64,000 bases of DNA, taken from the NCBI RefSeq assembly GCF_014803405.1, contig NZ_JACYFG010000055.1, positions 59,823-123,822 of the forward strand, read 5' to 3'. The notes under the pieces are model-generated. The model saw only the letters and a program-made list of their open reading frames with translations, was not told the DNA's origin and ran no database searches. This stretch comes from Pelagicoccus enzymogenes (GTDB lineage Bacteria; Verrucomicrobiota; Verrucomicrobiia; Opitutales; Opitutaceae). Made by a program: the position numbers and the translations under genes. This document shows positions 1-53,507 of this stretch, one piece after another; position 1 is the first letter of the stretch; each line of letters begins with the position of its first letter.

Positions 1-24299
<24,299 letters not shown>

Positions 24300-24408
24300 G
24301 TGGGAAACAGGGAAGTAAGCCTCGAAATAAAGAAATGCGTTTTACACATTGCGAGAACTTATTCCATGTATTCACAAAATTGTTAACATATTCACAAACA
24401 CCCTAGTT
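24300..24408 (-). promoter_or_regulatory. A+T-rich leader of the giant gene with two direct repeats
   Basis: The 109-base gap between the SecA-like gene and the giant gene is much richer in A+T than its surroundings. On the plus strand TATTCACAAA occurs at 24369-24378 and again at 24389-24398, exactly 20 bases apart (about two helical turns), with the palindrome TGTTAACA at 24381-24388 between them. This layout suits a regulator binding one face of the DNA and a promoter giving the cargo gene its own transcription. A TTAACA, 17-base gap, AATAAG arrangement can be read on the minus strand, but that assignment is weak. Confidence 0.45.
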
Positions 24409-26436
24409 TCATTGGGTGCTCTCTCCCCGTGAGAACCCGAGGGACGAACGCAATTCGTTTTCGTTTTTCATCACTGCCTTGCGAGCGATCTTGGCAAGTT
24501 TCTCCGCTCGACGCTGGGCGTAAAAGAGCCCGAGTCGTGACAATCCGGATACAAGGGGTACTCGGTTGAACCACTTCAAGACTCGCAAGGCCGAGCTAGG
24601 CAGCTGCTTCACCAGCAACTCGTCCTCGAAAGAGTAATACGCGCTGGTCGAGCCGCGAGCTCCCTGACGGGCTGCTCGTCCAAAAAGCTGACGATGCACA
24701 CGACGGCTGCTAGCCGGTTCGGTGGCGATCACGTGCAAGCCGCCCAAGGCTTCCACTCCGGCCTTGAGCTTAATGTCGGTCCCGCGGCCGGCCATGTTGG
24801 TAGCGATGGTCACGTGTCCAAGCTGTCCTGCCTGCTCGATGATCTTGGCCTCGTCCTCGATACGCACCGCATTCAATACCTCGCAACGCACTCCATTGAT
24901 GTTGAGCCTCCGAGCCAAGCGCTCGCTGGCGGTTACGCTCTGGGTACCGACTAGGACGGGCTGCCCATTGGATTGGCGCTGTCTGATCTCTTCGATGATA
25001 GCGTCTTCCTTGTCGTCGACGGTCAGAAAGAAACGCATGCCTCGGTCCGTTACTCGCTTGGGCTTGTTACGGGGAATCCGCACCGTCGCCAAGTCGTAGG
25101 TTTGCCAGACCTCGTCGGCGATCTCCTTCGCCGTGCCCGTCGCCCCCGACAGATGACCGTAACGTCGGAAGAAGGTTTGGAAGCTGATCTGGGCAATGGT
25201 CTGGGTCGGCGGCGTCATGGGCAGGTCTTCCTTGGCCTCCACCATCTGGTGCATCCCCAATTTCCAACTACGGTTCGGCATAGGACGTCCCGTGCTCTCG
25301 TCTACGATGACGATCGGGCTGGTCGAGGTGCCGAGATACTTCTTCTCTATAATGTAGTGGGTGCCCTTGAGGAAAAACTGGCGTGCCTCCAGGCCGAGCT
25401 GCACCAGCTGGCTGCGGCGAGTGGGACATTCCCAGAGCGCTGCGTCCGGGTAGCTTCCCGATTCGCGGGCGCGTTGGCGGCCTTGCGGGGTGAACTCCAA
25501 GCGACGTTGCTGGACCCAAACTCGAAAATCCCTGCCCTCCTCCATCTCGGAAGCCACGAACCAAGCTGCCCGGCAGGCTGCCTCCAGATCATCCATGTCC
25601 TGCTGGCGACTGATGATCAGCGGAGTCGTTGCCTCGTCGATCAAGCCGTTATCCGCCTCGTCGATGAAGGCACGAAATAGCCCGCGCTGCACCATGCCCA
25701 CATAGTTGCGGCCCCTACCGGAAAGTCTCTTAGCGCTGTAGCGACGTCCCGAACAGTTGGCTTCGCCCAAGAAAATGCGGTCCCGCAAGTAGTCCGCCGC
25801 CACTTCCTTGGCCGTAGTGTAGACGACCTGCTTCGCGTAAGCGTGGGAACGTTCGACCGGCTCCGACTGGCTGGTCACCGATCCCACTTCCAAGCCCACG
25901 CGATCGTACAGTCGCGACATGATCTTGGCGTCGCGATCCGCCAAGTAGTCGTTGGCCGTCACGATGTGGCAATAGCCGCCGCCCATGCAGGCCAGCGAGG
26001 CCGCCATGGCCAAAGATAAAGTCTTTCCCTCTCCCGTATCGATTTCGGCCAAGTACCCCTGGCACAAGGCCAAGGCTGCCAGCATCTGCACCGGATAGGG
26101 AGTCAGTCCGAGGCTGCGGCGCGAGAGTTCGCAAACCAAAGCCAGGCTTTCCGCCGTCGGCTTCAGGCAAAGCGGCCCCTCCAACCGAGCTGCCGCTCCG
26201 CAACGCTGCAGTTCCGAGTCCAAGGCCGCGTCGCTCAAATCTCTCAGATCCGCCAGCAAGCCGAGAGCAGTATCCACTTTTTCCTGCCACTTCTTGCGCA
26301 CCGAAGCGCGGCGAGACCAACGCCCCGCAACCCCCTTCGCCCAAACGTCCATACCCTTCAAAGGCGCCGGAACCGGCTTCTCGAAGAAGCGGTGCTGGAA
26401 CTCGCTGGGAGCCTGGAGCTGGAAGGGATTGCTCAT
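24409..26436 (-). CDS. SecA paralogue (accessory preprotein translocase ATPase)
   Basis: 675 residues, shorter than housekeeping SecA (about 850-900). Walker A is EIDTGEGKT (131-139), the DEAD box is FIDEADNGLIDEATTPLIIS (257-276), NMAGRGTDIK spans 547-556, and the motif VI region is QLFGRAARQG (583-592) followed by YSFEDEL. These are the SecA signatures, with changes: DEAD where SecA has DEVD, and GRAARQG where SecA has GRSGRQG. The C-terminal zinc-binding tail of ordinary SecA is absent. It starts 9 bases after the M50 gene and is followed, after 109 bases, by the giant gene, so it probably powers export of that protein. A housekeeping role is unlikely given length and context; the housekeeping secA should lie elsewhere in the genome. 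Confidence 0.92.
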   Translation of the reverse strand: MSNPFQLQAPSEFQHRFFEKPVPAPLKGMDVWAKGVAGRWSRRASVRKKWQEKVDTALGLLADLRDLSDAALDSELQRCGAAARLEGPLCLKPTAESLALVCELSRRSLGLTPYPVQMLAALALCQGYLAEIDTGEGKTLSLAMAASLACMGGGYCHIVTANDYLADRDAKIMSRLYDRVGLEVGSVTSQSEPVERSHAYAKQVVYTTAKEVAADYLRDRIFLGEANCSGRRYSAKRLSGRGRNYVGMVQRGLFRAFIDEADNGLIDEATTPLIISRQQDMDDLEAACRAAWFVASEMEEGRDFRVWVQQRRLEFTPQGRQRARESGSYPDAALWECPTRRSQLVQLGLEARQFFLKGTHYIIEKKYLGTSTSPIVIVDESTGRPMPNRSWKLGMHQMVEAKEDLPMTPPTQTIAQISFQTFFRRYGHLSGATGTAKEIADEVWQTYDLATVRIPRNKPKRVTDRGMRFFLTVDDKEDAIIEEIRQRQSNGQPVLVGTQSVTASERLARRLNINGVRCEVLNAVRIEDEAKIIEQAGQLGHVTIATNMAGRGTDIKLKAGVEALGGLHVIATEPASSRRVHRQLFGRAARQGARGSTSAYYSFEDELLVKQLPSSALRVLKWFNRVPLVSGLSRLGLFYAQRRAEKLAKIARKAVMKNENELRSSLGFSRGESTQ

Positions 26437-26445
26437 GCAACTATT

Positions 26446-28602
26446 TTAGAGTTGGTACTCTTTCTGGAAGGCCTGGCGCACCCGCAGGTACCATTGGCGA
26501 CCCAGCGGGAGATTTGGCAAGCGCAGCCGAGCCACTCCGCGCTGCCCGTGGTTGGCAATCTGTCCCTCGGGAACATGCAAGGTGGAACGTATCTCGAAAA
26601 ACGGTTCGGAGCTGGTGGAACCGGAGCGTTCGTTCGTATTCACCCCGACATTACCGCCACCCATAACGCCCAGCGATGCGGATGGCAGCTGGCTTTGTTC
26701 GGCCGGAATCGGCGTCACCTTGCTGAGCTGCATGGTTACGTTTTCCTGGCCAAAAAGCTTCACTTCGGCCGTGTCCCCTATCTCCGTGAACAAGCGATCC
26801 ACGTCCTTCTGGCGCACCACCGCCGAGAAACGAAACTCCCGCTCACCACGCACAAATCCAAGCGGCGACCCGCGTGCCACCATGCCATCCTCGTACTCGT
26901 GCAAGCCGGGAGCGATCCAACGGCCGGATACCGGCGCCTTCACCTGCAGCTCGGCGAGGCGACGCTTCGCTTCCTCGCGACGCACCAGAAGGGCTTCTTT
27001 CTTGGCCAGCAGCCCTTCCAACTGAGCCCCGTCCACGCTTTGGTCGGAACGGATCAAGAGCAGCAAGCGCTCGTATTCCAACTCCACCAAGTGGGCCTCC
27101 TGCTCCAGCTCGGGATTGCGGAAACTGACCAGCAACTGCCCCGCTTGCACCATAGATCCGGAAGGCGTATCAATCGAAACAAGCTCGCCCGCGGTCCCCG
27201 CATACACGTTCACGAAGGGATTCGACTGTACGATACCGTCGGTGCGGAAATAGTGCGGCAAGGGAACCCAGGTGAGAAATGCGGCGATCGCCAAAATGCT
27301 GCCCGCTGAAACCAATACTGCTCTGCTTCGATTGTTCATGAGTTCTGTCCCCGAGATTACATAGCGAGCGCCCTTTACGATCGGCACTACCAACCACATC
27401 ACCGCAAACACGATCGCAATGATCACGCCCGCGATTAGCCATTGTTTGGATACAAAAAAGAGAATGCTCACCAAAAGGAACATGCGATAGATCCAACTGG
27501 CGAAAAAGAAGGTCGTGAGCCCGACTACCTCCCCCAGGCTATTCGCCGGCACCGGTTGCCCGCGCAAGCCGAAGCCATAGCGATTCACCGCAAACTTTAT
27601 CAGCTGCTGAGCACGCATCTGCAAGTTCGGCGTCTCGCTCAGGTCCGTCAATATATGATAGCCGTCGAAGCGCAGCAGCGGATTCAAATTGAACAGGATC
27701 GTGGATACGGAAGCGGTAATCGCCATGTTGTAAGCTAGGCGCGACATCGTTCCGTCCCCCGCATTGGCCCAATACAAGATCGCCAAGCCTGCCACAAAGA
27801 TCTCCACATACATGCCTGCCGCCCCCACCAACACCCGGCGATGCTTGTGCGTGTAGGCATAGCTCGCGGATGCGTCCATGTAAGGCAGCGGGTTGAACAC
27901 GAGCAGCATCACCCCCATTTCCGGTACCTCGCGACCATAGCGGCGACAGGCATAGGCGTGGCCGAACTCGTGCAAGGTCTTGGTAATGATCATGGCCAAG
28001 TACAGCAGCGGTAGATTCGACAGTCCGAGCAAACCCTCCGACACGTCCTTGAATTCACCCCAATTCAAAGCCAAAGCCTGTACTCCAAAAGCAAGGACAA
28101 GCAGCCAAACTATAAATCCGAACGGAGCGAAGCACCAGCTGAAGAGGGCTATCGTCTTCTTCAAAAAAGGATCCGGATTGAAGAGCGGGATCTTCAAAAA
28201 GAGAAAGCTGGCCCACTGCTGCTTGGTCTTGGTGGCCTTCTCAGTCTTGCGCACTTCCGCCAAGGCTTCGATATCCGCCATGCGATCCCCTCTCAGCAAA
28301 CCGGAGCGGTAGAGCTGAGATAGCAGCTGCACCACGTCGCCTTGACTGGGCGAATTTTCCGGATCCACCCGCAAAGCCTCGTTCCAAGCGTCTTCCACGC
28401 AGTTCTCGTTTTCGAGGTGGCAAACAAACTTGTAGGCTTCCGGGCGGATACGGAAATACTGGTGGCCGAGCTTATCGCAAACCACGTACCACTGCTCGCC
28501 TTTGAAGCGTTGACGCACCAACTCGATCCCGGGCAGCAGTCGCAAGCGACAGTCCTTCACCCGATACCAGGATTCGTCAAAAACTCCGTTGGCCGTACTC
28601 AT
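26446..28602 (-). CDS. PqqD-like / M50 metalloprotease / HlyD-like membrane fusion protein
   Basis: 718 residues. Residues about 15-110 look like a PqqD-type winged-helix (RRE) domain: a short beta-rich stretch, then helices ending in a YRSGLLRGD tail. A polytopic domain follows with the M50 zinc motif HEFGH at 211-215 and the partner motif NPLLRFDGYH at 307-316 (Asp313), both intact. Hydrophobic segments fall near 151-178, 195-210, 257-280, 290-308, 365-385, 390-420 and 428-446. From about 455 an HlyD-like half begins, with a coiled coil (about 493-552) between two lipoyl-like strands and a Gly/Asn-rich loop near 650. The architecture resembles the putative peptide zinc metalloprotease (YydH-type) group seen with exported peptides. 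In this locus it could bind, cut or conduct the giant protein at the inner membrane (inference). Confidence 0.85.
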   Translation of the reverse strand: MSTANGVFDESWYRVKDCRLRLLPGIELVRQRFKGEQWYVVCDKLGHQYFRIRPEAYKFVCHLENENCVEDAWNEALRVDPENSPSQGDVVQLLSQLYRSGLLRGDRMADIEALAEVRKTEKATKTKQQWASFLFLKIPLFNPDPFLKKTIALFSWCFAPFGFIVWLLVLAFGVQALALNWGEFKDVSEGLLGLSNLPLLYLAMIITKTLHEFGHAYACRRYGREVPEMGVMLLVFNPLPYMDASASYAYTHKHRRVLVGAAGMYVEIFVAGLAILYWANAGDGTMSRLAYNMAITASVSTILFNLNPLLRFDGYHILTDLSETPNLQMRAQQLIKFAVNRYGFGLRGQPVPANSLGEVVGLTTFFFASWIYRMFLLVSILFFVSKQWLIAGVIIAIVFAVMWLVVPIVKGARYVISGTELMNNRSRAVLVSAGSILAIAAFLTWVPLPHYFRTDGIVQSNPFVNVYAGTAGELVSIDTPSGSMVQAGQLLVSFRNPELEQEAHLVELEYERLLLLIRSDQSVDGAQLEGLLAKKEALLVRREEAKRRLAELQVKAPVSGRWIAPGLHEYEDGMVARGSPLGFVRGEREFRFSAVVRQKDVDRLFTEIGDTAEVKLFGQENVTMQLSKVTPIPAEQSQLPSASLGVMGGGNVGVNTNERSGSTSSEPFFEIRSTLHVPEGQIANHGQRGVARLRLPNLPLGRQWYLRVRQAFQKEYQL

Positions 28603-28617
28603 GAGTTCGCTCGAAAA

Positions 28618-30414
28618 CTAGAACCAGAAAAGCATGCGGAAGAATTCGACGGTGCGGTGCATCAGGATCCACGCCAGCGAACGCTTGCCTGCATCCACCT
28701 TGCACACGCCGCTCATGCCCGGACGCCACCAATCGTCAGGCGCATCCTCCAAATGGATACGGACACGAAAATAGGTTCCCGACTCCTCGATGATCGCCAC
28801 CGGTTCGAACTGCTCGAGCCTCACGTCATAGCGATCGTAAGGGCGACTCGCAAAAGCCATCTGCCCCACTTGATCTGGGGAAAGGTAATTGATGTCCCGC
28901 TCGTCCACCCGCAGCTCCCCGTACAACCCTTCTAGCTTCACGATGCGATAAAGCGTTTCGCCAGCTTGCACGGGCGAAGCGAGCCGCTCGCGCAAGTCGC
29001 CTTCCACGATAATGCCATCGAAAGGCGCTCGCACCTGAGTCTTGGACAAGCGATACTCAAGTACATCGATCTTGGCATCCACTTGCTTGGCTGCCAATTG
29101 AGCCAAGCGCATCTCGGTCAGCTCGCCTTCGCCCTCAAGGCGACGGGCATCGGTGAGGTTGCGGTCGCGATTAGCCACCAATTCCGCGAGTTGAACTTCG
29201 AATTCACGGCGATCTAGATCCAGCAACAAGTCGCCTGCTTGCACGATATCGCCTACGTCATGGTGAACTTGGTCGATGTATCCAGGAAATGGAGCTGTCA
29301 AAAAAGCCGATGCCTCGGACTTCAAAATAAAGGACGCCTTCACCTTGTGCTCCATGCGCACCACCAGCGAGACCAGCATGAAAGCCACGATCAACAAGCC
29401 GGTCACCTTCCAACCGGTATGGCGATAGCCGATGAAACCTGCGCAAAAACGGCGGGAGCGGCGCCAGATACGCGCCCCGAACCAGCCCGTTTTGCGATGC
29501 ATCTCTTCTAGGCGAGGAGCAACCAAGTCGAGGATGACTCGCAAGGTTTCGATGTCCTCTTGCCCAACCGGAGCATCTTCCTGTGGATGCTCAACCGTCA
29601 GAACGCCCACACATCCATCTTCAAAACGAATCGGCAAGGAAAGCACTCTGCAGTTGGCATTGCTTTCCGAATACAAACGGTGCTGCAGATTCAAGGCATC
29701 GCCATCCAGCGGCGGGTGAGCGACCTCGCAGGATTGGTCCGCCGCCTCTTCCATCAGGCGTAGCAAGGAGCCAGCGGCTTCGGTGTCGTTGCGCACGCGA
29801 CCGCCATGGCTGGTGGCGACCAGCTTATACTTGTCGCCAGATTTCCACGACAAGGTCACTCGCATAGCCTTGAGGTGGTGGGCCAGCTCGCTGCAAAGCG
29901 TCATGGCCGCCGGATCGAAATTGACCGACTCCCCCAAAAGGAGGCCGAGGTCAACGATCTTGGAAAATTGGTCCAGCGAACGACTTGAACGCAATGCCGC
30001 CTGTTTCGCCTCCGAGCCGGATACCAAGGCCTGAGCCAGGGATACGACCTTGGCAGCATCTTGCTGCAGGCCTTCGCGTCCTTCGGCCAGTAGCACCAGA
30101 GAAACGCCATCCGCACGCTCCAAGCCGGCAACGAGCCAGCGTTCCGCGCCCTCTTCTATGACCTGGGCGCCTTCCGGCTTTTCGCCCACCACCGCGCGGC
30201 GCACGCTCTGCGGCAGCTCCGACATTCCCCCTTGGCCGTGCTGGCCGAGCAAGCGCACTTCCGAGGCGGAAGCCACGTGCAGCACCAGCGCGCGCTTCAA
30301 CTCCCACTGCTGGGAAAGGTAACGAGCCAGCGTATTCCAAAAGCTTACCGGATCCACCGCGTCTCCGAGCAATTTCTCGAAGCTGGCCGCATCAAATCTG
30401 TCTTCCGATTCCAT
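28618..30414 (-). CDS. GAF-GAF-TM-HlyD membrane fusion protein
   Basis: 598 residues. The first ~305 residues are soluble and fit one divergent GAF-like domain (about 10-130) and one clearer GAF domain (about 145-300). A single membrane helix spans about 335-353 (GLLIVAFMLVSLVVRM core). The rest is a periplasmic adaptor: lipoyl-like half-motifs near 373-400 (PGYIDQVHHDVGDIVQAGD) and 462-490 (VRAPFDGIIVEGDL) around a coiled coil at 402-460, then a beta-barrel region. A cytosolic GAF sensor on an HlyD adaptor would let export respond to a ligand or to the motor (inference). The gene starts 6 bases after the preceding adaptor gene stops, and 15 bases separate it from the M50 gene. Confidence 0.85.
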   Translation of the reverse strand: MESEDRFDAASFEKLLGDAVDPVSFWNTLARYLSQQWELKRALVLHVASASEVRLLGQHGQGGMSELPQSVRRAVVGEKPEGAQVIEEGAERWLVAGLERADGVSLVLLAEGREGLQQDAAKVVSLAQALVSGSEAKQAALRSSRSLDQFSKIVDLGLLLGESVNFDPAAMTLCSELAHHLKAMRVTLSWKSGDKYKLVATSHGGRVRNDTEAAGSLLRLMEEAADQSCEVAHPPLDGDALNLQHRLYSESNANCRVLSLPIRFEDGCVGVLTVEHPQEDAPVGQEDIETLRVILDLVAPRLEEMHRKTGWFGARIWRRSRRFCAGFIGYRHTGWKVTGLLIVAFMLVSLVVRMEHKVKASFILKSEASAFLTAPFPGYIDQVHHDVGDIVQAGDLLLDLDRREFEVQLAELVANRDRNLTDARRLEGEGELTEMRLAQLAAKQVDAKIDVLEYRLSKTQVRAPFDGIIVEGDLRERLASPVQAGETLYRIVKLEGLYGELRVDERDINYLSPDQVGQMAFASRPYDRYDVRLEQFEPVAIIEESGTYFRVRIHLEDAPDDWWRPGMSGVCKVDAGKRSLAWILMHRTVEFFRMLFWF

Positions 30415-30420
30415 GGAGCG

Positions 30421-31179
30421 TTACTGATCCCCCAAGTCGAGTTTCACTTGCACGCGGGCGCCGGGCTTCACCCCAGCCTGCGTATTGTCGAAGACGTAGC
30501 GCACCCGGAAAAGTCCGCTGCGGGAGTCGATCTGCGGATCCACGAAGTCCAGCCGCGCCGTGAAGGTTTGGCCCGGTTTGGCGATGGGGAATTGCACCTC
30601 CGCTTCGCCGCCCACCTGTAAAGCCGGCAAGTCGGAAGCCGACATGAAGAACTGCAGCTTGAGCTGGTCCGACTTGATCACTTCGAACAGCGGCTCCACT
30701 CGCCCGATCGCTTCGCCCGGGTCCTTCAAACGAAAAACCACCACGCCCGCGATGGGAGAACGGATAATGCGTTCCTCCACATCGTTAAGAGCGATCTCGC
30801 GCTCGATCTTGAGGCTCTGCAACGCCGTGCGGGCCTCCACCAGCTTGTCCTCGCTTTCGATGCGTTCCGCCACGAGGTCAGCCGTCGCCTTGAAATCGAC
30901 TTCCGCCTTCTCGATCAGCACTTCCAAACGCTCGACCTCCAGCCGCTCCTGGGAGGAAAGCAGCTCCGCCAAAACCTGTCCCGCTTCCACTTCGTCCCCT
31001 TCCGAGACGGACACGGACTTTACGATTTCCTCCACCGGAGAACTCACGGTGATACGCTCCATCGGTTGGCTGATGCCTTCCACCCAACGCGTTTCCGCGA
31101 GCAGGCTTGAGCTAACGAGGAAACCTAAACTTGCAGCGAACAAGCTCCGCAAGCGCACGAATCGATAAAGTGGATACAT
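30421..31179 (-). CDS. Periplasmic adaptor protein (HlyD/RND MFP family)
   Basis: 252 residues from the ATG at 31179, chosen because it gives a proper signal peptide (hydrophobic 13-27, likely cut after SSLLA); a longer in-frame reading upstream runs into the REP-like pair. The mature protein has a lipoyl-like half-motif (SPVEEIVKSVSVSEGDEVEAGQ, 47-68), a helical hairpin (74-135), the second half (RSPIAGVVVFRLKDPGEAIG, 140-159) and a beta domain ending in VKPGARVQVKLDLG. This is the standard fold of adaptors linking an inner-membrane pump to a TolC channel. Its small size suggests it works together with the two larger HlyD-like proteins encoded just downstream. The stop is 6 bases from the next start, indicating co-transcription. 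Confidence 0.9.
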   Translation of the reverse strand: MYPLYRFVRLRSLFAASLGFLVSSSLLAETRWVEGISQPMERITVSSPVEEIVKSVSVSEGDEVEAGQVLAELLSSQERLEVERLEVLIEKAEVDFKATADLVAERIESEDKLVEARTALQSLKIEREIALNDVEERIIRSPIAGVVVFRLKDPGEAIGRVEPLFEVIKSDQLKLQFFMSASDLPALQVGGEAEVQFPIAKPGQTFTARLDFVDPQIDSRSGLFRVRYVFDNTQAGVKPGARVQVKLDLGDQ

Positions 31180-31226
31180 AAATGATTTGGGGTAATTCAG
31201 ATTGTTAAGGAACTTGCCGTGTGAGC

Positions 31227-31306
31227 GTAGGGCTGGCGCTCGCGCCACGCCGCGTTGCAGGATATCGGTTCGAAGGCTCCCCGCAGGTCGCAAGCGACGG
31301 CCCTAC
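31227..31306. repeat. Pair of inverted REP-like hairpins
   Basis: Between the TolC and adaptor genes lie two related elements facing each other. The left begins GTAGGGCTGG and contains GGCGC-TC-GCGCC. The right, read on the minus strand, begins GTAGGGCCGTCGC and contains GTCGC-AA-GCGAC. Such inverted pairs of short GT(A/G)GG-headed hairpins are typical of bacterial REP/BIME elements. In the tolC-to-adaptor transcript they could form RNA hairpins that alter stability or readthrough. Confidence 0.7.
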
Positions 31307-31364
31307 AAAATCGAAACCTCGAGCAACAAGCACCACTTCAATAACAGTTAATTCTAAGATATTT

Positions 31365-32915
31365 CTATTCCGCTTCGCCCTTCTCGGCGAAGCTAAAGTC
31401 GTATCCGAGCACCTCGGAAAGTTCGCCCTGCAGAAGCAACAACTGGATCCAAGCCTTTTGCACTTCCACCTCGGCCGCGAGGCCTTGCGTACGAGAAACG
31501 CTGAGCTCGCGCTGCTGGTTAAGCACTTCGTAGTTGGTGGCCTTGCCGTTTTCCAAGCGGCGCTCTTCCGCCTTCAGGGCTTCGCGAGCGAGCTCCACGG
31601 ATTGCTCGATCAAGTCGCGACGCTTGATGCCCGCTTCCAGTTGGTAGATCGCGTTGTCCAAAGCGCCCAACAATTGGACCTCGGACTGCTTCACCTTCAA
31701 GAGAGCTTGCTGCTCGCGCTTCTTGGACGCGAGGTGGCGAGACTTGGCAGCGCGATTGTCCAAAGCCATGTTGAAGGCCAAGCCTACGCTCCAGTCCACG
31801 TCTTCGCGATTTTCGAAATCCGAAACCGAGCCGCGCCAGTCGTCGTTCAAGCCGCTGGTGCCCACCGACATGAGCAAATTGATTTCTGGGTAGCGTTGAT
31901 TCTTGCTGTAGACGACGCGGATTCCCTCGTTCTCCGCCGCCTTCATAGCCGCCAAGTAGTCCGGATTCTTCTCCAGCATCACCGACGCCAGCGCATCGTG
32001 GTCCACCCTGCCCGGTACATTCGGCAAGGCCCCTTCGACATCAGCCAAAACGTAGTCCGCCGCATTCAGCACGTAGTTCTCTTGGGTCAGCTCCTGCAGC
32101 TGGTTCTGGCGTTGCTTGAAAAACGCGGTCGCCTCGATCAGCTCCGCTTCCGCTTCCGCCACGCGGGCCTCGGCTTGCGTCACGTTGATGGGCGACATGC
32201 GCCCCGCTTCCACCCGCTTCTTGTTCTCTTCCAACAAGGCCTTGGCAAGATCGATCGACTCTTGCTTCACCTCGAGGTTGCGGATCGAAAAATGCGTCTC
32301 GTAAGTCGCAAGCAACACCCTGGCCACCACCGTTTCGATCGCGGAACGCGTCTCGAAGCGGGCTACTTCCAGCTCAGCCTTGGCCAAGCGGATGGGCGCG
32401 AGATTCACCTTCAAGCCGAAGTTGCGCAGCAAAGGCTGGGTCACCGTCAGCTTCACGTTAGACGTGTATTCAGGATCGTAGTACGCGCTGGCGCGACGCG
32501 TATAGGTGCTCTCCAAGCGTCCCGAGCCACCAGAGAGCTCATAGGTACTTCCGAATGGCAAGCGCCCGCCCAGCTTGCCGCGGGCGTAGTAGTTCTCGTG
32601 GTTGTACTCGGGATCCAGCGGATTGAAGGCAGAGGAGCTGCTGAGGTCCTGGGCGTTGAGCTGCTTGAACAAGCGGTCGGTGCCGATCTCCACTCCGATG
32701 CTGGGAGCGAAGCGGCCCCATTCGCCGCGAAGGTTGTCCTCCTTGATCGCCGCGTCCAAGCGGCTGACTTCGAGCCCCAAGTTGTTTTCCAGGGCGCGGG
32801 AGATCAGGTCTTGAGGCGTCAATGCCTCCTGAGCTGAAGATATTGAGAGAGGGAAAAGGGCAATGCACGCGAAACGCGCGACCCTGTTGGCACTGCGAGA
32901 TAGGGATTGGTTCAC
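31365..32915 (-). CDS. TolC-family outer membrane channel protein
   Basis: 516 residues from a GTG start at 32915. A signal peptide (about 1-28, ending ISSAQ) is followed by the duplicated outer membrane efflux protein fold: PQDLISRALENNLGLEVSRL near the mature start, a Tyr/Gly-rich beta region (about 75-150), VTQPLLRNFGLK near 157, long helices with the INVTQAEARVAEAEAELIEA segment (244-263), and a second half with a matching helix ending KATNYEVLNQQRELSVSRTQ. Length is usual for the family. It is the first gene of the minus-strand locus and should form the outer membrane exit for the downstream adaptors. The next gene lies 185 bases away across a REP-like pair. Confidence 0.93.
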   Translation of the reverse strand: MNQSLSRSANRVARFACIALFPLSISSAQEALTPQDLISRALENNLGLEVSRLDAAIKEDNLRGEWGRFAPSIGVEIGTDRLFKQLNAQDLSSSSAFNPLDPEYNHENYYARGKLGGRLPFGSTYELSGGSGRLESTYTRRASAYYDPEYTSNVKLTVTQPLLRNFGLKVNLAPIRLAKAELEVARFETRSAIETVVARVLLATYETHFSIRNLEVKQESIDLAKALLEENKKRVEAGRMSPINVTQAEARVAEAEAELIEATAFFKQRQNQLQELTQENYVLNAADYVLADVEGALPNVPGRVDHDALASVMLEKNPDYLAAMKAAENEGIRVVYSKNQRYPEINLLMSVGTSGLNDDWRGSVSDFENREDVDWSVGLAFNMALDNRAAKSRHLASKKREQQALLKVKQSEVQLLGALDNAIYQLEAGIKRRDLIEQSVELAREALKAEERRLENGKATNYEVLNQQRELSVSRTQGLAAEVEVQKAWIQLLLLQGELSEVLGYDFSFAEKGEAE

Positions 32916-35417
<2,502 letters not shown>

Positions 35418-35423
35418 CTGGTG

Positions 35424-35446
35424 GGTCGGCTTCTCCGAAGACGACC
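35424..35446. repeat. REP-like hairpin after icd
   Basis: GGTCGGCTTC, loop TCC, GAAGACGACC: ten-base arms with one mismatch, starting 7 bases after the icd stop and preceded by GTG as in other elements of this family. There is no T-run, so it is more likely a REP-like element than the terminator itself. Confidence 0.5.
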
Positions 35447-35470
35447 TATTCACACCAACCCAATCTCACA

Positions 35471-35500
35471 AAGAGCAGCCCTCACCGGCTGCTCTTTTTT
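35471..35500 (+). terminator. Rho-independent terminator of icd
   Basis: AAGAGCAGCC (35471-35480), loop CTCACC, GGCTGCTCTT (35487-35496), followed by more T to 35500. The ten-base perfect stem and T-run form a textbook intrinsic terminator 54 bases after the stop. The remaining ~235 bases before the next gene (35501-35735) contain a C-run and CCCTAGGGAA-like words but no gene or clear site. Confidence 0.93.
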
Positions 35501-35735
35501 ACGCCCATACCAGCCCCCCCCCTAAATTTGCGTACGTGGGCCAGCAAATAGACTCTAGTCAAAACGTTGGACCACGATAACACAATCCCCCTAGGGAACA
35601 ACGCGAGCTTCTTCGTGTATCCACGCAATCACGACGCTTGATCCAATTTTGGTAGAGACATCGCTAGGGAAGCCACCCACAAGGCATGCGTTCCTTTAAC
35701 ACCCATGCCAACTCCTGCTTGCCAACCGATCCTCG

Positions 35736-37256
35736 ATGAAACTCCTTCCTGACGCCCTCACTCGTCACGTCCAAATCCTCGCCGCACTCACACTCGCTCA
35801 CAGCGCCCAAGCCAGCGTATCGCTTAACTGGAAAGACAATTCCAGCAACGAAGACGGATTCGCTATCGAACGCTCCATCGACGGAATTCACTTCCAGGAA
35901 ATCGGTCGCGTTCCAGCCGACGTCGACAAATTCACCGATCCGAACGCGACCGAGGGAAAAACCTTCCACTACCGCGTACGCGCCTTCAACGCCTTCGGAT
36001 TCTCCGGCTACACCGACACCATCAGCGCCACCGTCGCTGCCTTGGTCGAAAGCGCCAGCGAAACGATCGACCGCACCCTGCAAACCGTTTCGGAGGAAAG
36101 CGAGAAGCTCCTCTTCAACGGTCAGTTGCTTTCCGCGAGCAGCCTGCCCACTACCACCGTCGGCTCCTCGACAATCCAAGACGCATACCAATACTACGAC
36201 AGCCTTGGGCTCCATGCCCTGATCTCCCTAGGCAGCGGTTTGGGCCCCCGCTCGGACTCCTTCAAATTTACCTACCTTCCCATCGAGCAAGACTGCCAAA
36301 TCGTGGTCCGCGTCCCTTTCCATTCCGGTGGATCTCCGGAGAGCGCCTGCGGCATCATGGTTCGAAGCAGCCTCGCTCCCGACTCCGCCTACGGGGCCGC
36401 GCTGCTCACGGCCAACGGCGCCGCTCAGGCTCGTTGGCGCCCAAAAAACAACGACATTTCGCAAACCCGAGAGCTGCTCAGTTCCCATCCCAACACCCGC
36501 TACCTGAAAATACGCCGCCGCGGTTCCTATTGCTGGCTGAGCGCTTCCCGGGACGGATACGACTGGTCACCAAGCAGCAAGGTTCCCGTCGCGCTCGGCA
36601 GCACCCCTCTGGTCGGCATTTTTCTCGCATCTTCCGGAAACACCAACTCCATCGCGGTGCTCGAAATCCTAGAAAGCACCGAACCCCTCTTGGCTCCTTC
36701 ACTCTCCTACTACCGCGCATCTGGCAGCCAAGCCGCCATCGGAGTCGAAAGTTCCCAGGTCTCCTCCACCCTCGACCAAGCGACCGGCCTCTACAAGCTG
36801 ACCGCCCAAGGACGCGGCTTCGAGCAATACCACGACCAACTCAATTTCTACCAGTGGACCGGCGTCGGATCGTGCCGCATTGTCGCCAAGATCCACGCCT
36901 TCGTGGGCGATGGAACCTCCGCCCGCACCGGGCTCTCCCTGCGAGCCTCCCTCGAACCCGACTCTCCAATCGCCGCCGTCACCCTCAACGGCTACGGCAA
37001 GATCGAGACCCTGACCCGCTCTGGGGACGGGGCCAAGATCACCACCCTCAGCGGACCGGAACTCCCCGCCGGTTGCTACCTCGCCCTCGAACGGCAAGGC
37101 AACACCGTCTCCTACCAATGGTCCCCCAACGGGGTCGACTGGAACGAATTCGGAACCGCAATCCTTGATCTCCCTTCAATCCATCACGTCGGCCTCACCC
37201 TCGGCTCTCATGATGGCGAATCCGCCTCGCTGATTGAGCTCACCGGCCTCTACTGA
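35736..37256 (+). CDS. Secreted FN3-domain protein with two beta-sandwich modules
   Basis: 506 residues. A signal peptide covers about 1-27 (ending HSAQA). Residues 28-98 form a fibronectin type III domain (LNWKDNSSNEDGFAIERS, then FHYRVRAFNAFGFSGYT). Two similar modules of about 180 residues follow (about 150-310 and 320-506). Each has a sandwich pattern with YLKIRRRGSYCWLSASRDGYDW in the first and YLALERQGNTVSYQWSPNGVDW in the second, which resembles concanavalin-like (DUF1349/beta-xylosidase C-terminal) domains that follow glycosidases. No catalytic motif is recognised. It could be a surface carbohydrate-binding or matrix protein. The gene stands alone, 54 bases before the next reading frame. 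Confidence 0.7.
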   Translation: MKLLPDALTRHVQILAALTLAHSAQASVSLNWKDNSSNEDGFAIERSIDGIHFQEIGRVPADVDKFTDPNATEGKTFHYRVRAFNAFGFSGYTDTISATVAALVESASETIDRTLQTVSEESEKLLFNGQLLSASSLPTTTVGSSTIQDAYQYYDSLGLHALISLGSGLGPRSDSFKFTYLPIEQDCQIVVRVPFHSGGSPESACGIMVRSSLAPDSAYGAALLTANGAAQARWRPKNNDISQTRELLSSHPNTRYLKIRRRGSYCWLSASRDGYDWSPSSKVPVALGSTPLVGIFLASSGNTNSIAVLEILESTEPLLAPSLSYYRASGSQAAIGVESSQVSSTLDQATGLYKLTAQGRGFEQYHDQLNFYQWTGVGSCRIVAKIHAFVGDGTSARTGLSLRASLEPDSPIAAVTLNGYGKIETLTRSGDGAKITTLSGPELPAGCYLALERQGNTVSYQWSPNGVDWNEFGTAILDLPSIHHVGLTLGSHDGESASLIELTGLY

Positions 37257-37325
37257 GACCTAACGCGCTTACCGAAGTGTAGAACCACCCTAGACAGTGG
37301 CAGCCGGGCTGTGCATAGACAAGGC

Positions 37326-38438
37326 ATGCCCTACCCCAAGATCCGCTTTACGGTTGCCGTCGTCGCGGCAATTTTCGCCCAGCTCTGCCATGCCAGTACG
37401 CTAGAGCTGCCACCCCCGCCCCCTCCCGCCGACATCCCCACGCCAGGCCCCCAAACCGACGCGCCCTACCAGCCTACGCCCATTGTGCCCGGCGGCATTG
37501 TCATCCCACTCTACCCGCCCGACTCTCCGCACCTCGACCCAAGCCGTATCCACGAAGCCGAGACATACGGCAGCTACAGCCCTCCCCACCTCGGCTACAT
37601 CGTAAACATCCACAACCCCTCCATCGAATTCCACGCCGCCAACGGAGCACTCAACACCGGAGCCACCGTCATCCTCGCCGCCGGAGGGGGACACAATAAT
37701 CTCAACATCGTGGGCGAAGGCTCCCTACTCGTACCCTTCTTTACCCAAAACGGCATCAACGCCGTGCTCTTGCGCAACCGCCTCCGCTCCGACGGCTATA
37801 AACCTACAACCCACGGCGTGCACGACGCCCAGCAGGCCATCAAGCTCGTCCGCGCCCACGCCAAGCATTGGAATTTGGATACAAACAAGATCGGCATTCT
37901 CGGCTTCTCCGCCGGTGCCGAACTCGCCGCCCGGGCCGGCCTGCAATACGAAGCCTTCGACGCGGCGGAAAACAAGCCCGACAATCCACTCGCCTCTATA
38001 TCCTCCCGACCGGACTTCATAGGTAGCGTCTACCCCGGTCCCTCGCCCTTCGCTTTCGGCAAGTCCGCGGACATTCCCCGCGACGCTCCCCCTGTATTTT
38101 TCGCCTCGCCCGGCTGGGGCGATTGGATTCACGCCATCTGGGCCACCGAGCACTTCACCGCCCTGCTCGAAGACGGCGTACCCAATTGCGAACTACACAT
38201 CTACGCCCGCGGTGTGCACCCCGGCGACCGCTCCCAAGCCAGCCAAGCCCCCGCCACCGCCGGCCTCAGCAGCCGCGACGGAGTCGCCTTCGGCAAATGG
38301 CAAGACCGCTACCTGCACTGGCTCGACGACCTCGGCTTCCTACAAAAACCAGGCGCTGAAACCCAAGCCGCCCGCGACACCGCCGCCAACCTCGACCGCC
38401 CCGACCGCATCTCGAAGTACCGCGAGATTAAACGTTAA
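37326..38438 (+). CDS. Secreted alpha/beta-hydrolase, acetyl-esterase type
   Basis: 370 residues from the ATG at 37326, which places a signal peptide (about 1-23, ending CHA) directly at the start. A Pro-rich stretch (29-55) precedes the catalytic domain. The oxyanion loop is AAGGGHNNL (118-126) and the nucleophile elbow is GFSAG with Ser195. A His for the triad is likely in ARGVHPGDRS near the C-terminus. The pattern fits the BD-FAE/Aes group, in which many members remove acetyl or feruloyl groups from plant or algal polysaccharides. Close proximity to glycosidase genes supports a polysaccharide role, but the substrate cannot be told from the sequence. Confidence 0.8.
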   Translation: MPYPKIRFTVAVVAAIFAQLCHASTLELPPPPPPADIPTPGPQTDAPYQPTPIVPGGIVIPLYPPDSPHLDPSRIHEAETYGSYSPPHLGYIVNIHNPSIEFHAANGALNTGATVILAAGGGHNNLNIVGEGSLLVPFFTQNGINAVLLRNRLRSDGYKPTTHGVHDAQQAIKLVRAHAKHWNLDTNKIGILGFSAGAELAARAGLQYEAFDAAENKPDNPLASISSRPDFIGSVYPGPSPFAFGKSADIPRDAPPVFFASPGWGDWIHAIWATEHFTALLEDGVPNCELHIYARGVHPGDRSQASQAPATAGLSSRDGVAFGKWQDRYLHWLDDLGFLQKPGAETQAARDTAANLDRPDRISKYREIKR

Positions 38439-38439
38439 G

Positions 38440-38461
38440 GTCGGGTCTTCCGTAAGACCTA
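38440..38461. repeat. Short hairpin after the esterase gene
   Basis: GGTCTT (38444-38449), loop CCGT, AAGACC (38454-38459), directly after the stop. There is no T-run. It matches in position and in its GGTCG-type head the other REP-like hairpins of the window, but the stem is short. Confidence 0.35.
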
Positions 38462-38518
38462 GCACTGCGCTTCAGCCAGCGGCCCCATTAGCAAGGTCGT
38501 TTCTCTTTGATCCGCCAC

Positions 38519-38782
38519 CTAACAGGCAGTCACGATATTCGAAACCTGGCAAAACGGATCCACTCGCCAACCGATCCCCATCGGGGAAGAGAAAACGATT
38601 CCCCGCCTCTCAAAAGCCAACCCCGGAGGCGGAGACATGTGCCCCAAAAAATCGATCACGCCGCAACCCGCTTTGCTCCGCCCCAAGATCCCGATCGTGC
38701 CCAATGCCAACTTCCTCGAAATAGAATCCGGCAGAGCAAACAAGAGGGGGCGACCTACAGTCCTGTAAAACCAGTCAGGCAT
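38519..38782 (-). pseudogene. pyrD: Remnant of dihydroorotate dehydrogenase (pyrD), N-terminal part
   Basis: From the ATG at 38782 the minus strand reads about 87 residues resembling the start of class 2 (membrane-linked) dihydroorotate dehydrogenase. It has FYRTVGRPLLF, then LALGTIGILGRS and a GIVFSSPMGIGWRVDP stretch where intact enzymes have G-L-F-NPVGLAAG-DK. The frame then stops. The family is about 340-360 residues long, so three quarters, including flavin and orotate binding residues, is missing. Only about 80 bases remain before the esterase gene, so the rest was deleted. PyrD would catalyse dihydroorotate to orotate in pyrimidine synthesis; this copy cannot. Chance similarity is possible, since only about 85 residues support the call. 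Confidence 0.5.
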
Positions 38783-38886
38783 AGCGGCAAACTGGCCAAA
38801 CTTAAAGCCGCGAGCAAGCCTCGGTATCAGCCAAATCTTTTGGCTTTCCACCTCAGCTTCCCCATCCATAGGTTTTTAGCCACCCC

Positions 38887-40152
38887 ATGCAGAAAGATCC
38901 CGCCCAGCTCCAAGCCCGCTCCCGCAAGTACGCCCGCATCGACTTCGCTCTGATCGCCCTTTGCCTCGCAGCCAACGCCGTCCTCGCCTACCTCATCGTC
39001 AGAGAAAGCTCGCTCTACTCCGTATTCGTTTCCTGTATACTATTCGGGCTTTCCTACGCCATCCACCTCAGCTTCGCCCACGGACTCTTCAAGCTCCCCA
39101 AGGCCCGCCTCGTCGAATTTGGCTCCACCCAAAAGATCGGTCGCTACCAAGCGGGCGAAATCTACCTCATGATGCGTGAACTGCTCGCCCCGCATCGCGG
39201 CAAAGAACAACCCCGCACCTACATCACCTTCCAGAAATACGACGGCGCCTTCGTGCTCAACAGCCTGCTCTTCAATTTCGTCAAACCGCTCAACGCCGTC
39301 TACATCTCCCAGCACCTTTTCCAAATCCTCAAGCCCGGCGAAATCAAAGCGATCCTCGCCCACGAGCTCGCCCATTTCTACGAATACATCCGCCCACTCA
39401 GCCGCGTTCACTTCGCTCTCATGGGCTTCAACGCCCTCTTCCCCATTTACCTCAGCCTCGACGCCGGCTCCATCTCCCTCTGGCAAGCCTTCCTCATCTG
39501 GCTCGCCTTCTCCCTGCTCTTCAACTTCTCCGTCAACACCTGGCTAGGCCGCACCTCCCGCGACCACGAACACCTCTGCGACCTTTCCGCCGCCCGCCGC
39601 TACGGAGTCCTCAACATCGCAAACGGCCTCTTCGGCGTCTGCAAAACCGCCGAAATCCAAGCCCAGCTCTACAAAGCCCTGCTTCAACGTATCCGCAACG
39701 ACAATACACTCTCCATCGATCAGCTCGACGAGCTGCTCTTTCGCTGCGAAAACGAACTGCCCGCCAAAGCCATCGGCCAAAAAGACATCCAACGCCTCGT
39801 CAGCAACATCCTCGCCAGTCCCCAGTCCCAACAAATCCGCAAGCCCCTCGACGCTCAGCAACAAGCCAAGGAGGAACAGCTCATCCAAAAGGCCATCGAC
39901 CGGCTCCTGCTCGACCGGGACTTCAAGCTGCTCGACTGGAAACGCTTCGACTTCGTCATCCCCGACGGCCGCCTCAACCAGGCCGAATACGAGCGTCTCG
40001 TACGCACCCTCGACGCCAGCCCCCAGCACCAACTCTTCAACATCGCTACCGACAACGTACGCGAAAGCAAAAACAGCACCCATCCCACCGTCGCCCAACG
40101 CATCCTCTTCCTCGAAAACGCCCGCCTCCTCGACCCCAGCATTCCCATCTAG
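38887..40152 (+). CDS. M48-family membrane metalloprotease
   Basis: 421 residues. Two membrane helices lie at about 18-38 and 45-66. The zinc motif HELAH is at 159-163 (AILAHELAHFYEYI) and the third zinc ligand is probably Glu228 in DHEHLCDLSAARRYG, the usual ExxxD arrangement of M48 (HtpX/Ste24-like) peptidases. Two further hydrophobic segments (about 171-192 and 197-216) lie between these motifs, as in HtpX. The C-terminal ~180 residues are charged and helical and probably cytosolic. Such proteases act in quality control of membrane proteins. The following membrane protein gene lies 33 bases downstream and may be co-transcribed. No signal peptide or lipobox is seen. Confidence 0.85.
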   Translation: MQKDPAQLQARSRKYARIDFALIALCLAANAVLAYLIVRESSLYSVFVSCILFGLSYAIHLSFAHGLFKLPKARLVEFGSTQKIGRYQAGEIYLMMRELLAPHRGKEQPRTYITFQKYDGAFVLNSLLFNFVKPLNAVYISQHLFQILKPGEIKAILAHELAHFYEYIRPLSRVHFALMGFNALFPIYLSLDAGSISLWQAFLIWLAFSLLFNFSVNTWLGRTSRDHEHLCDLSAARRYGVLNIANGLFGVCKTAEIQAQLYKALLQRIRNDNTLSIDQLDELLFRCENELPAKAIGQKDIQRLVSNILASPQSQQIRKPLDAQQQAKEEQLIQKAIDRLLLDRDFKLLDWKRFDFVIPDGRLNQAEYERLVRTLDASPQHQLFNIATDNVRESKNSTHPTVAQRILFLENARLLDPSIPI

Positions 40153-40185
40153 ACAAGCGAGCTCATCCACCCCCTCCCCCAATAA

Positions 40186-40617
40186 ATGGATACAAAACTA
40201 AAAGTAGGCTACTGGCTCTACGCCCTTTCCTTCGTGGCCCCTAGCTTCGACCTCTCACTTTGGGGCATCCAGATCGCCACCCACTGCGCGCTGAGCAGCG
40301 TCGCACTCCTGCTATCCGGATTTCCCGAGCTCTTGTATGGTTTGGCTATGCTGTCGCTTTTCTTTCTCAACTTCACCGTCCTACCCGGGATCGAGCTGCA
40401 CAAAGGCCTGAGAATAGCCACCATGATCCTCGCCGGACTCGCGGGAATCCTCCCTCAGCAAGGCCCCGAGGGCGAGACGCTCTTCTACATCACAATGCCT
40501 CCCTATTTGCTTTGGGTCGCGTCCGTTCTTCTGATCAACCTGGTGAAGATCAAGGAAGCCCACTCCGGCCAAACCGTAGATAACAAGGCCCTGCAGGAGC
40601 GACCGCGGTCGCGATAA
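40186..40617 (+). CDS. Small polytopic membrane protein of unknown function
   Basis: 143 residues with about four hydrophobic segments (roughly 9-27, 31-48, 50-68 and 78-90, with another at 105-122). I recognise no family. A notable feature is its end: the last eight codons and the TAA stop lie inside a REP-like element (40593-40615), so the C-terminus LQERPRSR probably derives from the inserted repeat. It follows the M48 protease gene by 33 bases and precedes an esterase gene by 22 bases, suggesting one transcript. Confidence 0.6.
   Translation: MDTKLKVGYWLYALSFVAPSFDLSLWGIQIATHCALSSVALLLSGFPELLYGLAMLSLFFLNFTVLPGIELHKGLRIATMILAGLAGILPQQGPEGETLFYITMPPYLLWVASVLLINLVKIKEAHSGQTVDNKALQERPRSR
40593..40615. 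repeat. REP-like element overlapping a gene end
   Basis: GCAGGAGCGACC, GC, GGTCGCGAT: a six-base perfect stem GCGACC/GGTCGC with a GC centre and the family head (G)AGGAGCG. It overlaps the last codons of the small membrane protein gene. Confidence 0.75.
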
Positions 40618-40639
40618 CTTCCGACTCATAAACCTATCC

Positions 40640-41353
40640 ATGCCCGAAACCGAGTACACCCTGCGCAGCGAGATTCTCGATAACGAGCGACGAATCTGGA
40701 TACGCGAACCCGCCTCCCTCCAAACGGACCTCGATCTCCTCATCGTCCTCGACGCCGAGCTCTACCGCAATCGCGTGCAAGCTCCGCAGATCATCGAGGA
40801 CCTCTTCGAATCCGGCACGCTCGCCCAAACCTTGGTCGTCTACGTCTCTAGCGTCAGTATGGACGTCCGCTGGATCGAGTGCCCCTGCTACCCTCCCTTC
40901 GCCGCCTTCGTAACCAAAGAGTTGATACCTTCGATCCACGAACGCTATCCCAAAACAGTCCAGGCCAAGGAACGCGTCATCGCCGGACTCAGCTACACCG
41001 GACTCGCCGCCTCCTTCGTCGCCCTCACCCACGACGGCCTTTTCACAAAAGTCATTTCCCAATCCGGTTCCTACTGGTCCAACGATTGTTGGCTCATTCG
41101 GGAATTCGACGGCCAATCCCTGAACCATCCGCCCGCCTTCTTCCTAGACGTAGGCGACAAGGAAACGCAGGAGTATGTCTGGCACAAAGAAGACGTCGTG
41201 CAAACCATCTCCCAGGTGGAAGGCGTCGAACGCTTCCGCGACATGTTGTTGAAAAACGGATACGAGGTACGCTACGACACCTTCTCCGGCGGACATTCCG
41301 CCGAAGCCTGGGCCACCTCTCTCCCCAACGCCCTGAAGTGGGCGCTGGGGTGA
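40640..41353 (+). CDS. Esterase, alpha/beta-hydrolase (Fes/esterase D-like)
   Basis: 237 residues without signal peptide, so probably cytosolic. VLDAELY near 37-43 is the first core strand, and the nucleophile elbow is GLSYTG with Ser118, a variant of the GxSxGG seen in Fes/IroE-type and S-formylglutathione-hydrolase-like esterases. The triad His is probably in FSGGHSAEAW (about 217-226), and LDVGDKETQE supplies the acid region. The family cleaves small esters, including siderophore esters and acyl-sugars; the substrate here is unknown. It follows a small membrane protein gene by 22 bases. Confidence 0.8.
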   Translation: MPETEYTLRSEILDNERRIWIREPASLQTDLDLLIVLDAELYRNRVQAPQIIEDLFESGTLAQTLVVYVSSVSMDVRWIECPCYPPFAAFVTKELIPSIHERYPKTVQAKERVIAGLSYTGLAASFVALTHDGLFTKVISQSGSYWSNDCWLIREFDGQSLNHPPAFFLDVGDKETQEYVWHKEDVVQTISQVEGVERFRDMLLKNGYEVRYDTFSGGHSAEAWATSLPNALKWALG

Positions 41354-41368
41354 CAACCGAAAACCGCG

Positions 41369-41460
41369 TGTGGGAGCGTGCTTCGCAAGTCCGCCATAGC
41401 TCGAAGAGCGACGGCTGGAGTCAAGCGATAAACGGAACCAGCTCCCACGCCACGCGATCA
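41369..41460. repeat. Degenerate pair of REP-like elements
   Basis: The left part carries GTGGGAGCG-like sequence (GTGTGGGAGCGTGCTTCGC). The right part, read on the minus strand, carries GATCGCGTGGCGTGGGAGC. Both share the family head but the stems are imperfect. They fill most of the 205-base gap between the esterase and phosphoesterase genes. Confidence 0.45.
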
Positions 41461-41558
41461 GGTCTGCCACAGGCAGGCGTTCGAGAACAAATTCGCTCTC
41501 GCGACCATTTCCCTTTGCAGCCTCAGCAAGCGTACCGTTTGCTTCCCACCGCAGATAA

Positions 41559-42311: not shown

Positions 42312-42327
42312 CGCGCTACACCCCGCT

Positions 42328-42343
42328 TCCCCCAATCGAGGGA
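42328..42343. promoter_or_regulatory. Candidate operator upstream of the first GH43 gene
   Basis: TCCCCCAATCGAGGGA differs at two of 16 positions from the perfect palindrome found upstream of the TonB-dependent receptor. It lies about 100 bases before the GH43 start at 42445 and outside coding sequence. Confidence 0.5.
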
Positions 42344-42444
42344 TACAGATCCGCTTGCCCTCTTCCCCGCCAATTCGTGAATTGGGTAAACGCACATCCA
42401 ACGCGCTCCGCTCCAACGCCCACCCCAAACATTCTCCATCGCCC

Positions 42445-46835
<4,391 letters not shown>

Positions 46836-46852
46836 AAATTTCTAACTCTTTG

Positions 46853-46915: not shown

Positions 46916-46937
46916 AACCCCCATCCCCCAAAGACAA

Positions 46938-52084: not shown

Positions 52085-52099
52085 CGCCCCCCTTTCCCC

Positions 52100-53482: not shown

Positions 53483-53507
53483 CACATTCATCTTAAACAT
53501 GACCTTT

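Follow-up and report, generated by a model that had tools for sequence, protein, structure and literature searches.

A gene cluster with a short SecA and no ABC transporter in Pelagicoccus enzymogenes is a probable export machine for giant LEPR-tagged proteins

This work concerns a cluster of five genes, together with the giant protein encoded beside it, on a 64,000-nucleotide stretch of the genome of Pelagicoccus enzymogenes (G000:C54:59823-123822, i.e., positions 59,823 to 123,822 of contig NZ_JACYFG010000055.1; genomes, contigs and loci carry G, C and L numbers below), hereafter called the window. All six genes lie on the - strand. The first encodes a TolC-family outer-membrane channel of 516 residues (31365..32915; PF02321 OEP, E-value 7.8e-43, 146.9 bits), which also matches TIGR01844 at 3.5e-30, under the cut-off of that model. 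It is followed by a periplasmic adaptor of the HlyD_D23/RND_mfp type (30421..31293; PF16576, 5.9e-19; TIGR01730, 126.4 bits, cut-off 94.9). Translation of this adaptor probably begins downstream of the listed TTG, at an internal ATG behind which a signal-peptide-like stretch was recognized by eye. The third product is a GAF-HlyD adaptor (28618..30414), which consists of a GAF domain (PF01590, 1.2e-6), a single membrane stretch seen by eye and an HlyD domain (PF13437, 6e-15). The fourth is a polytopic M50 intramembrane protease fused to an HlyD/MexA-type adaptor (26446..28602; PF02163, 28.9 bits, cut-off 27.2), and the fifth is a short SecA (24409..26436) comprising nucleotide-binding domain (NBD) 1, the preprotein-binding domain and NBD2; of the wing-scaffold domain, only the beginning of the scaffold helix is present. 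The last four genes are separated by 6, 15 and 9 bases, the genes for TolC and the HlyD_D23 protein by 71, and the secA gene and the frame of the giant by 109. Both the membrane fusion protein, of HlyD type, and the TolC that type I secretion requires are thus encoded at the locus, whereas the nine frames that were scanned between 24409 and 40152 include no ATP-binding cassette (ABC) transporter.

The giant occupies 1..24299 of the window. Its open frame begins at about 24299 (TTG) or at 24263 (GTG), leaves the window and comprises 16,523 codons on the contig, where it ends at C54:34550. None of these codons encodes cysteine. RTX repeats are found close to the C-terminus; apart from these, the parts scanned with Pfam (residues 1-7,999, residues about 8,075-12,974 and the last 1,813 codons) yielded two matches, a weak one to RTX around residue 9,600 and another under the cut-off. 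Near the N-terminus lies a LEPR-XLL tag (FVVEQLEPKVLLSAAP; 24171..24233, - strand), which matches NF012209 (LEPR-8K) with an E-value of 1.2e-6 and 31.5 bits, against a cut-off of 17, and is the single match of that model in the genome. The N-terminus has no hydrophobic core, its peak hydropathy over 12 residues being 1.09. An earlier note on this DNA had described five same-strand genes with these short gaps before a giant LEPR-type protein, a missing ABC ATPase, a SecA paralogue and a cargo without ordinary signal peptide, and all four statements hold.

The same note had called the cluster a possible new export system, which does not stand: it had rediscovered a known locus. According to the main text of Kamneva, Poudel and Ward (2015; PMC4452313), secondary SecA_DEAD proteins that lack all or most of SecA_SW are encoded beside M50-HlyD, GAF-HlyD and HlyD proteins and sometimes an OEP protein, without an ABC transporter; it is the locus of the window. 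That text already proposes the SecA_DEAD protein as the ATPase standing in for the missing ABC and M50 as a possible pore, infers lateral transfer and calls the broader role of the locus completely unknown. The terms giant, LEPR, PqqD, RTX and cargo were not found in a term search of it. LEPR-XLL domain proteins are likewise known (NF012209), e.g., from Vibrio VB16 (PMC10868602), and the tag of the window's giant is identical in kind to theirs. In the Creative Commons-licensed literature of PubMed Central, the scope of our search, with subscription journals and bioRxiv outside it, no paper was found that links the locus to LEPR proteins or gives LEPR-XLL proteins an export route. New with respect to 2015 are the cargo, its tag, a SecA-less sister branch and a tag code, all described below. 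In Methylorubrum (Methylobacterium) extorquens AM1, a laboratory strain, the cluster was reported at META1p2399-2402 (Kamneva et al., 2015) and an RTX protein of 15,831 residues, a candidate cargo, at META1_2412 (Vuilleumier et al., 2009). According to Kamneva et al. (2015), expression of the M50, SecA and HlyD genes is low or absent during exponential growth.

The window's genome is about 96% complete and encodes two SecA_DEAD proteins and one SecY; a second SecY (SecY2) was not found in it. A feature unnoticed by the earlier note is that the short SecA is truncated past the first scaffold helix, both the alignment and the predicted model stopping at SecA residue about 604-613. The Walker A motif, the DExD motif and the arginines of NBD2 show no variation among 22 short SecAs. 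The protein scores under all four NCBIfam SecA2 cut-offs listed, with 414, 379, 372 and 310 bits against 1085, 930, 725 and 1100, respectively. In a tree of 79 sequences, built with a quick method and without an outgroup, a branch with an SH-like approximate likelihood ratio test (SH-aLRT) value of 100 splits 16 housekeeping SecAs (10 from the phylum and six from Burkholderiales) from all 62 short SecAs, which rules out that the short SecA is a duplicate of the housekeeping gene. The tree also agrees with the sorting of close scores in Burkholderiales, where G518 (597 bits) was taken as a short SecA and G355, G446 and G522 (604-607 bits, ~890 residues) as housekeeping proteins. Short SecAs of different phyla intermingle in it, in agreement with Kamneva et al. 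(2015). In public records, the short SecA is labelled "prepilin peptidase," "DEAD/DEAH box helicase" or "translocase" (e.g., L303:22198-24114 and L304:22139-24124).

In the M50-HlyD protein, the HExxH motif and a distal aspartate are invariant across 22 family members, and a relation to daptide and YydH-type proteases of ribosomally synthesized and post-translationally modified peptides (RiPPs) was found below cut-off. M50 does not appear among the structure matches of the protein, a list that is filled by one domain, so that the M50 assignment is unaffected. PF05402 (PqqD) is found at E <= 1 in 10 of 22 relatives, and two alphaproteobacterial relatives score above its cut-off. In RiPP pathways, domains of this kind serve to bind leader peptides.

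The cluster genes form a conserved unit. The nearest named relative of the M50-HlyD protein, from Pelagicoccus sp. SDUM812005, is 97% identical. Among 80 named M50-HlyD loci, many of them on short contigs, a short SecA is in view in 71, GAF-HlyD in 72, HlyD in 55 and TolC in 41. Six of the nine loci without SecA stop within or shortly past the M50-HlyD gene. A search of plasmids with M50-HlyD (tblastn) gave 12 alphaproteobacterial plasmids with a short SecA (H1-H12), a Caballeronia plasmid without SecA (H13) being excluded. All 12 carry the giant frame or frames immediately before the cluster and on the same strand, an operon-like order. The giant spans the start of the plasmid record in R. 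johnstonii and Pseudohalocynthiibacter and is read as two frames that overlap in R. beringeri (H7), and in Alisedimentitalea the tag lies upstream of the annotated start. All seven plasmid N-termini that were read contain the LEPR tag (e.g., VHFEALEPRLLLSAD, LHLETFEPRVLLSAD and MLDPMEPRVLLSAD), and the four that were scored with NF012209 all pass its cut-off. In six alphaproteobacterial plasmid clusters (L303-L306, L314 and L322), a gene of ~100 codons encoding a DUF3467 protein, possibly a chaperone or an extra part, lies between the giant and the adaptors.

Short SecA and LEPR-tagged proteins also co-occur across two genome samples. One set of 288 genomes of the phylum was profiled for M50-HlyD, LEPR-8K and short SecA, the latter being called at >=290 bits in 21 genomes; the other SecA matches listed all reach <=230 bits. 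LEPR-8K scores above its cut-off in 28 of the 288 genomes, i.e., in 20 of the 21 with short SecA vs. eight of the 267 without. At E <= 1e-3, the counts are 19/21 and 1/267, respectively (Fisher's test, 1.7e-26), and in the window's own family, 8/8 and 0/17. Within four genera, short SecA and LEPR are present or missing jointly (g6, G274 vs. G075, G122 and G155; g8, G140 vs. G085 and G260; g19, G039 vs. G048 and G108; g59, G093 and G186 vs. G023). Nine LEPR-match loci from genomes of the phylum without short SecA were inspected: five did not match the motif pattern used, three had other letters, and one had an LSA-type motif deep in a short frame. M50-HlyD (>=100 bits) occurs without short SecA in 39 genomes of the phylum, only two of which have LEPR above cut-off; thus, M50-HlyD alone is ruled out as the explanation of the LSA-type tag in the phylum. 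In the second sample, 200 genomes of Burkholderiales, the order of a Comamonadaceae genome, LEPR is above cut-off in 35 genomes and short SecA present in 24, with both in 22. This amounts to LEPR in 22/24 genomes with short SecA vs. 13/176 without, or at E <= 1e-3 in 21/24 vs. 2/176 (p = 3.6e-23), and all 24 genomes with short SecA contain M50-HlyD at >560 bits. Outside the named Verrucomicrobia, 50 genomes were reached via M50-HlyD loci (50 of the 80 named loci, including L140, L162 and L173, which show no SecA at the locus); LEPR is above cut-off in 42 of them, a sample without negative set. Thus, the neighbourhood that the earlier note expected in related genomes exists, the unit accompanies LEPR-XLL proteins, and SecA branches outside the housekeeping group. 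The idea of a single client, one giant protein, applies to the window's genome and not to others: the highest number of LEPR hits in one genome is three within the phylum and 32 outside it.

The tag has the consensus F-x-(V/L/I)-E-x-L-E-P-R-x-(L/M)-L-S-A-D and mostly lies 10-80 residues past a possible start codon, behind a basic stretch, the start codons of the giants being uncertain. None of 44 N-termini contains a 12-residue stretch with a hydropathy above 2.2, as judged on a hydropathy scale and not with a signal-peptide predictor. These N-termini came from 60 loci, 16 of which were unmatched by a motif pattern that demanded S, N or A at the next position and was blind to tags ending in FDGA. 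A rerun with a wider pattern found LSA-type tags in 20/21 and 30/30 cases, one remaining without match. Like the window's giant, the others are poor in cysteine, with 23 in 22,200 residues of N-terminal pieces and four in ~26,260 residues of 17 far-end pieces, eight of which contain RTX motifs. No C-terminal sequence is common to all 17, one of which (L233) reaches a contig end and contains no true C-terminus. The Planc_extracel family (PF07595) is a candidate relative of the tag. LEPR giants occur in near-tandem pairs in seven genomes (G186, G091, G140, G018, G157, G015 and G039), the second protein being ~4,500-6,600 residues long. At E <= 0.05, LEPR matches number 32 in the planctomycete genome G324 (L195) and 14 in the planctomycete genome G330 (L201). 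Many of them are on frames of ~500-2,000 residues, and in these two genomes the tag may have numerous clients. A control genome, of Deinobacterium chartae, also contains LEPR-8K above cut-off.

A sister branch of clusters consists of the same gene kinds in the order TolC/HlyD/HlyD/M50-HlyD, with a large Ig-like gene in front and, in contrast to the window, no SecA in the stretch seen and a different tag, LExRxxFD[GA]A. Such clusters adjoin a large gene on Azospirillum p2 and on an E. coli plasmid. The Azospirillum tag, LEPRFMFDAA, is encoded by a DUF4347 gene, with which the start of the Ig-like gene overlaps. Another tag of the branch is LESRQLFDGA, and LEPRLMFDGA, LEDRILFDGA and similar sequences are found in Burkholderiales and the phylum. 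The E. coli plasmid (NZ_CP081687.1; L324 and L330) is of the IncFIA/IncFIB type; the Ig-like gene before its cluster is 13.4 kb long, and the tag is of the FDGA type. In all, 17 Escherichia plasmid records match M50-HlyD. The Burkholderiales genomes that have LEPR matches without SecA had been taken as noise, a notion that was dropped because seven of these 13 genomes contain a weaker M50-HlyD (360-388 bits), which was found in one of 10 further genomes of the order without SecA or LEPR. All four SecA-less Burkholderiales loci examined (L325-L328) have an FDGA-type tag on a large frame. When cysteine-poor large frames with an N-terminal LExR motif were counted at the fetched loci, neither ending being demanded, the loci with SecA had 29 LSA-type tags, one other (LLSV) and no FDGA-type tag, and those without SecA eight FDGA-type tags and one LSA-type tag (p = 1.8e-7). 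Two of the SecA-containing rows, L110 and L163, probably represent one genome, because their tags are identical and their coordinates match; the LSA-type row without SecA (L154) is from a locus that ends within M50-HlyD at a contig edge, so that SecA is not visible. Azospirillum was scored as SecA-less from 29 kb of one plasmid, and the E. coli frame is outside the count. In six of nine SecA-less loci of the phylum, no cysteine-poor large frame with a LExR motif was found.

We consider it probable that the cluster is an ABC-free export machine for LEPR-tagged giant proteins. The parts would form one machine, in which the shortened SecA would drive the giants through the M50-HlyD protein in the inner membrane into a conduit of adaptors and TolC. 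The LEPR tag would be the export signal, which might be recognized by the PqqD-like N-terminal domain of M50-HlyD. The M50 domain might form or gate the passage through the inner membrane and may clip the tag, whilst SecA would push the unfolded chain. The RTX repeats, if present, would fold outside with calcium; the adaptors and TolC would complete the duct, and the GAF domain might act as a sensor of state. Given the SecA-less branch with a tag of its own, SecA may be an additional motor that very long chains require. At a wider level, the evidence is evenly balanced on whether these systems constitute a class of one-step secretion with an N-terminal signal code, in which ABC-free M50-HlyD/TolC exporters are addressed by LExR tags and an intramembrane protease serves as conduit. 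Giants tagged LEPRxLLSAD, with frames of up to ~20,000 codons, would be directed to machines with a SecA motor, and shorter adhesins tagged LExRxxFDGA to motorless machines. The machine would resemble type I secretion (HlyBD-TolC, LapBCE) in its adaptors, its TolC and its huge, cysteine-poor and partly RTX-containing cargo, and differ from it in that SecA and M50 are present, the ABC is missing and the common tag of the cargo is N-terminal. In accessory Sec systems (SecA2 and SecA2-SecY2), a second SecA is devoted to particular surface proteins, as may be the case here; however, these systems differ by SecY2, the wing-scaffold domain, the SecA2 scores discussed above and the lack of outer-membrane parts.

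Several observations could be explained differently. The short SecA might serve the ordinary SecYEG translocon, the HlyD and TolC parts carrying the chain onward from the periplasmic side in a second step. Mycobacterial SecA2 uses ordinary SecYEG, the window's genome contains a single SecY, and the predicted model of the short SecA, which matches free SecA chains with equal Z, fits four SecY-bound chains (6itc, 5eul, 3dl8 and 3din) with a root-mean-square deviation of 3.4-3.6, so that such a route is possible. However, the wing, the two-helix finger, which in SecA is located beyond residue 613, and most of the scaffold are absent, and PF07516 matches neither the window's short SecA nor any of its 120 listed relatives. 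Moreover, the tag has no hydrophobic core, and the SecA-less sister clusters retain the set of M50-HlyD, adaptors and TolC. A two-step route thus appears unlikely. That the cluster processes, tethers or releases giants after their export elsewhere, e.g., by M50 clipping, would agree with the invariant protease motifs and the relation to RiPP proteases; it leaves a SecA ATPase, TolC and three adaptors unexplained and is improbable. Hardly to be believed is the idea that giant and cluster co-occur merely by sharing one mobile stretch. Their order in cis on plasmids and the intermingling of phyla in the SecA tree would fit it, but the LEPR giants of G018 are located >=148 kb from the cluster, in G186 the distances to the first cluster are 46 and 98 kb, and the type of tag tracks the motor.

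The giants could also be ordinary type I substrates of an ABC transporter, the SecA cluster having another job. An ABC gene elsewhere for the same cargo was what the earlier note had named as speaking against its idea, and the window's genome encodes a type I secretion ABC of the LapB/LssB type on C6 (TIGR03375, 909 bits, cut-off 693), accompanied by a frame that looks TolC-like by eye (L237:1691-3925; L301:3832-5145). Together with the RTX repeats of the giant and of others, this makes a type I route possible in this genome. However, no giant frame lies within the 34 kb around it (C6:136000-170000), and no C-terminal sequence is common to all 17 far-end pieces. Among 40 genomes tested with TIGR03375, 21 of them with short SecA, the window's own is the only one above cut-off, and none of the 20 others with short SecA is; models specific to HlyB- or PrtD-type ABCs were not part of the search. 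Thus, a LapB-type ABC is ruled out as a general exporter of giants and left possible for the window's genome, and the explanation as a whole is very improbable.

Besides the fit to SecY-bound chains and the ABC on C6, other points weigh against an ABC-free machine. The window's own M50-HlyD is not matched by the PqqD profile. Weaker, near-full-length TIGR03375 matches exist in two SecA-containing genomes (G126, 379 bits; G274, 315 bits). C-terminal sequences are common within small groups of related giants (L220/L230/L231, L223/L225 and L228/L229), which makes a C-terminal export signal possible. Of the 80 named loci, L140, L171 and L173 continue past M50-HlyD and contain no SecA there. The co-occurrence has exceptions: in the phylum, G086 has SecA without LEPR, G189 has LEPR at an E-value of 0.01 only, and G119 has LEPR (9.6e-4) in a frame of 636 residues without short SecA; in Burkholderiales, G389 and G451 have short SecA without LEPR above cut-off, and G430 and G431 LEPR at an E-value of ~2e-4 without short SecA. 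Finally, the species tree enters the counts only via the within-genus pairs. With these points included, export of LEPR-tagged giants by the cluster itself, with M50 as a putative channel and the PqqD-like domain as a putative receptor of the tag, is the reading we favour.

Two features of the surroundings stand apart from this question. GC skew is ~-0.24 to -0.31 across a 20-kb stretch that lies right of the cluster (positions 34000-54000 of the window), which sets this stretch apart from the remaining window. To the left of the window on C54, 29 bases past the stop codon of the giant, begins a gene for a two-partner-secretion exoprotein of 1,939 residues with a TPS domain and eight MBG_2 stretches (L007:8701-14520), followed by a ShlB/FhaC-type transporter gene (L007:6663-8738). 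This is a different system.

The wider question is how bacteria move single chains of 5,000-20,000 residues over two membranes outside type I secretion. Through the link described here, an orphan locus gains a probable cargo, a short and portable signal, and natural contrasts, i.e., clusters with and without SecA and two types of tags. If the proposed machine is real, SecA would power export without its wing-scaffold region, an intramembrane protease would substitute for the ABC exporter, and an export route would be available to LEPR-XLL proteins in Verrucomicrobiota, Planctomycetota and Proteobacteria.

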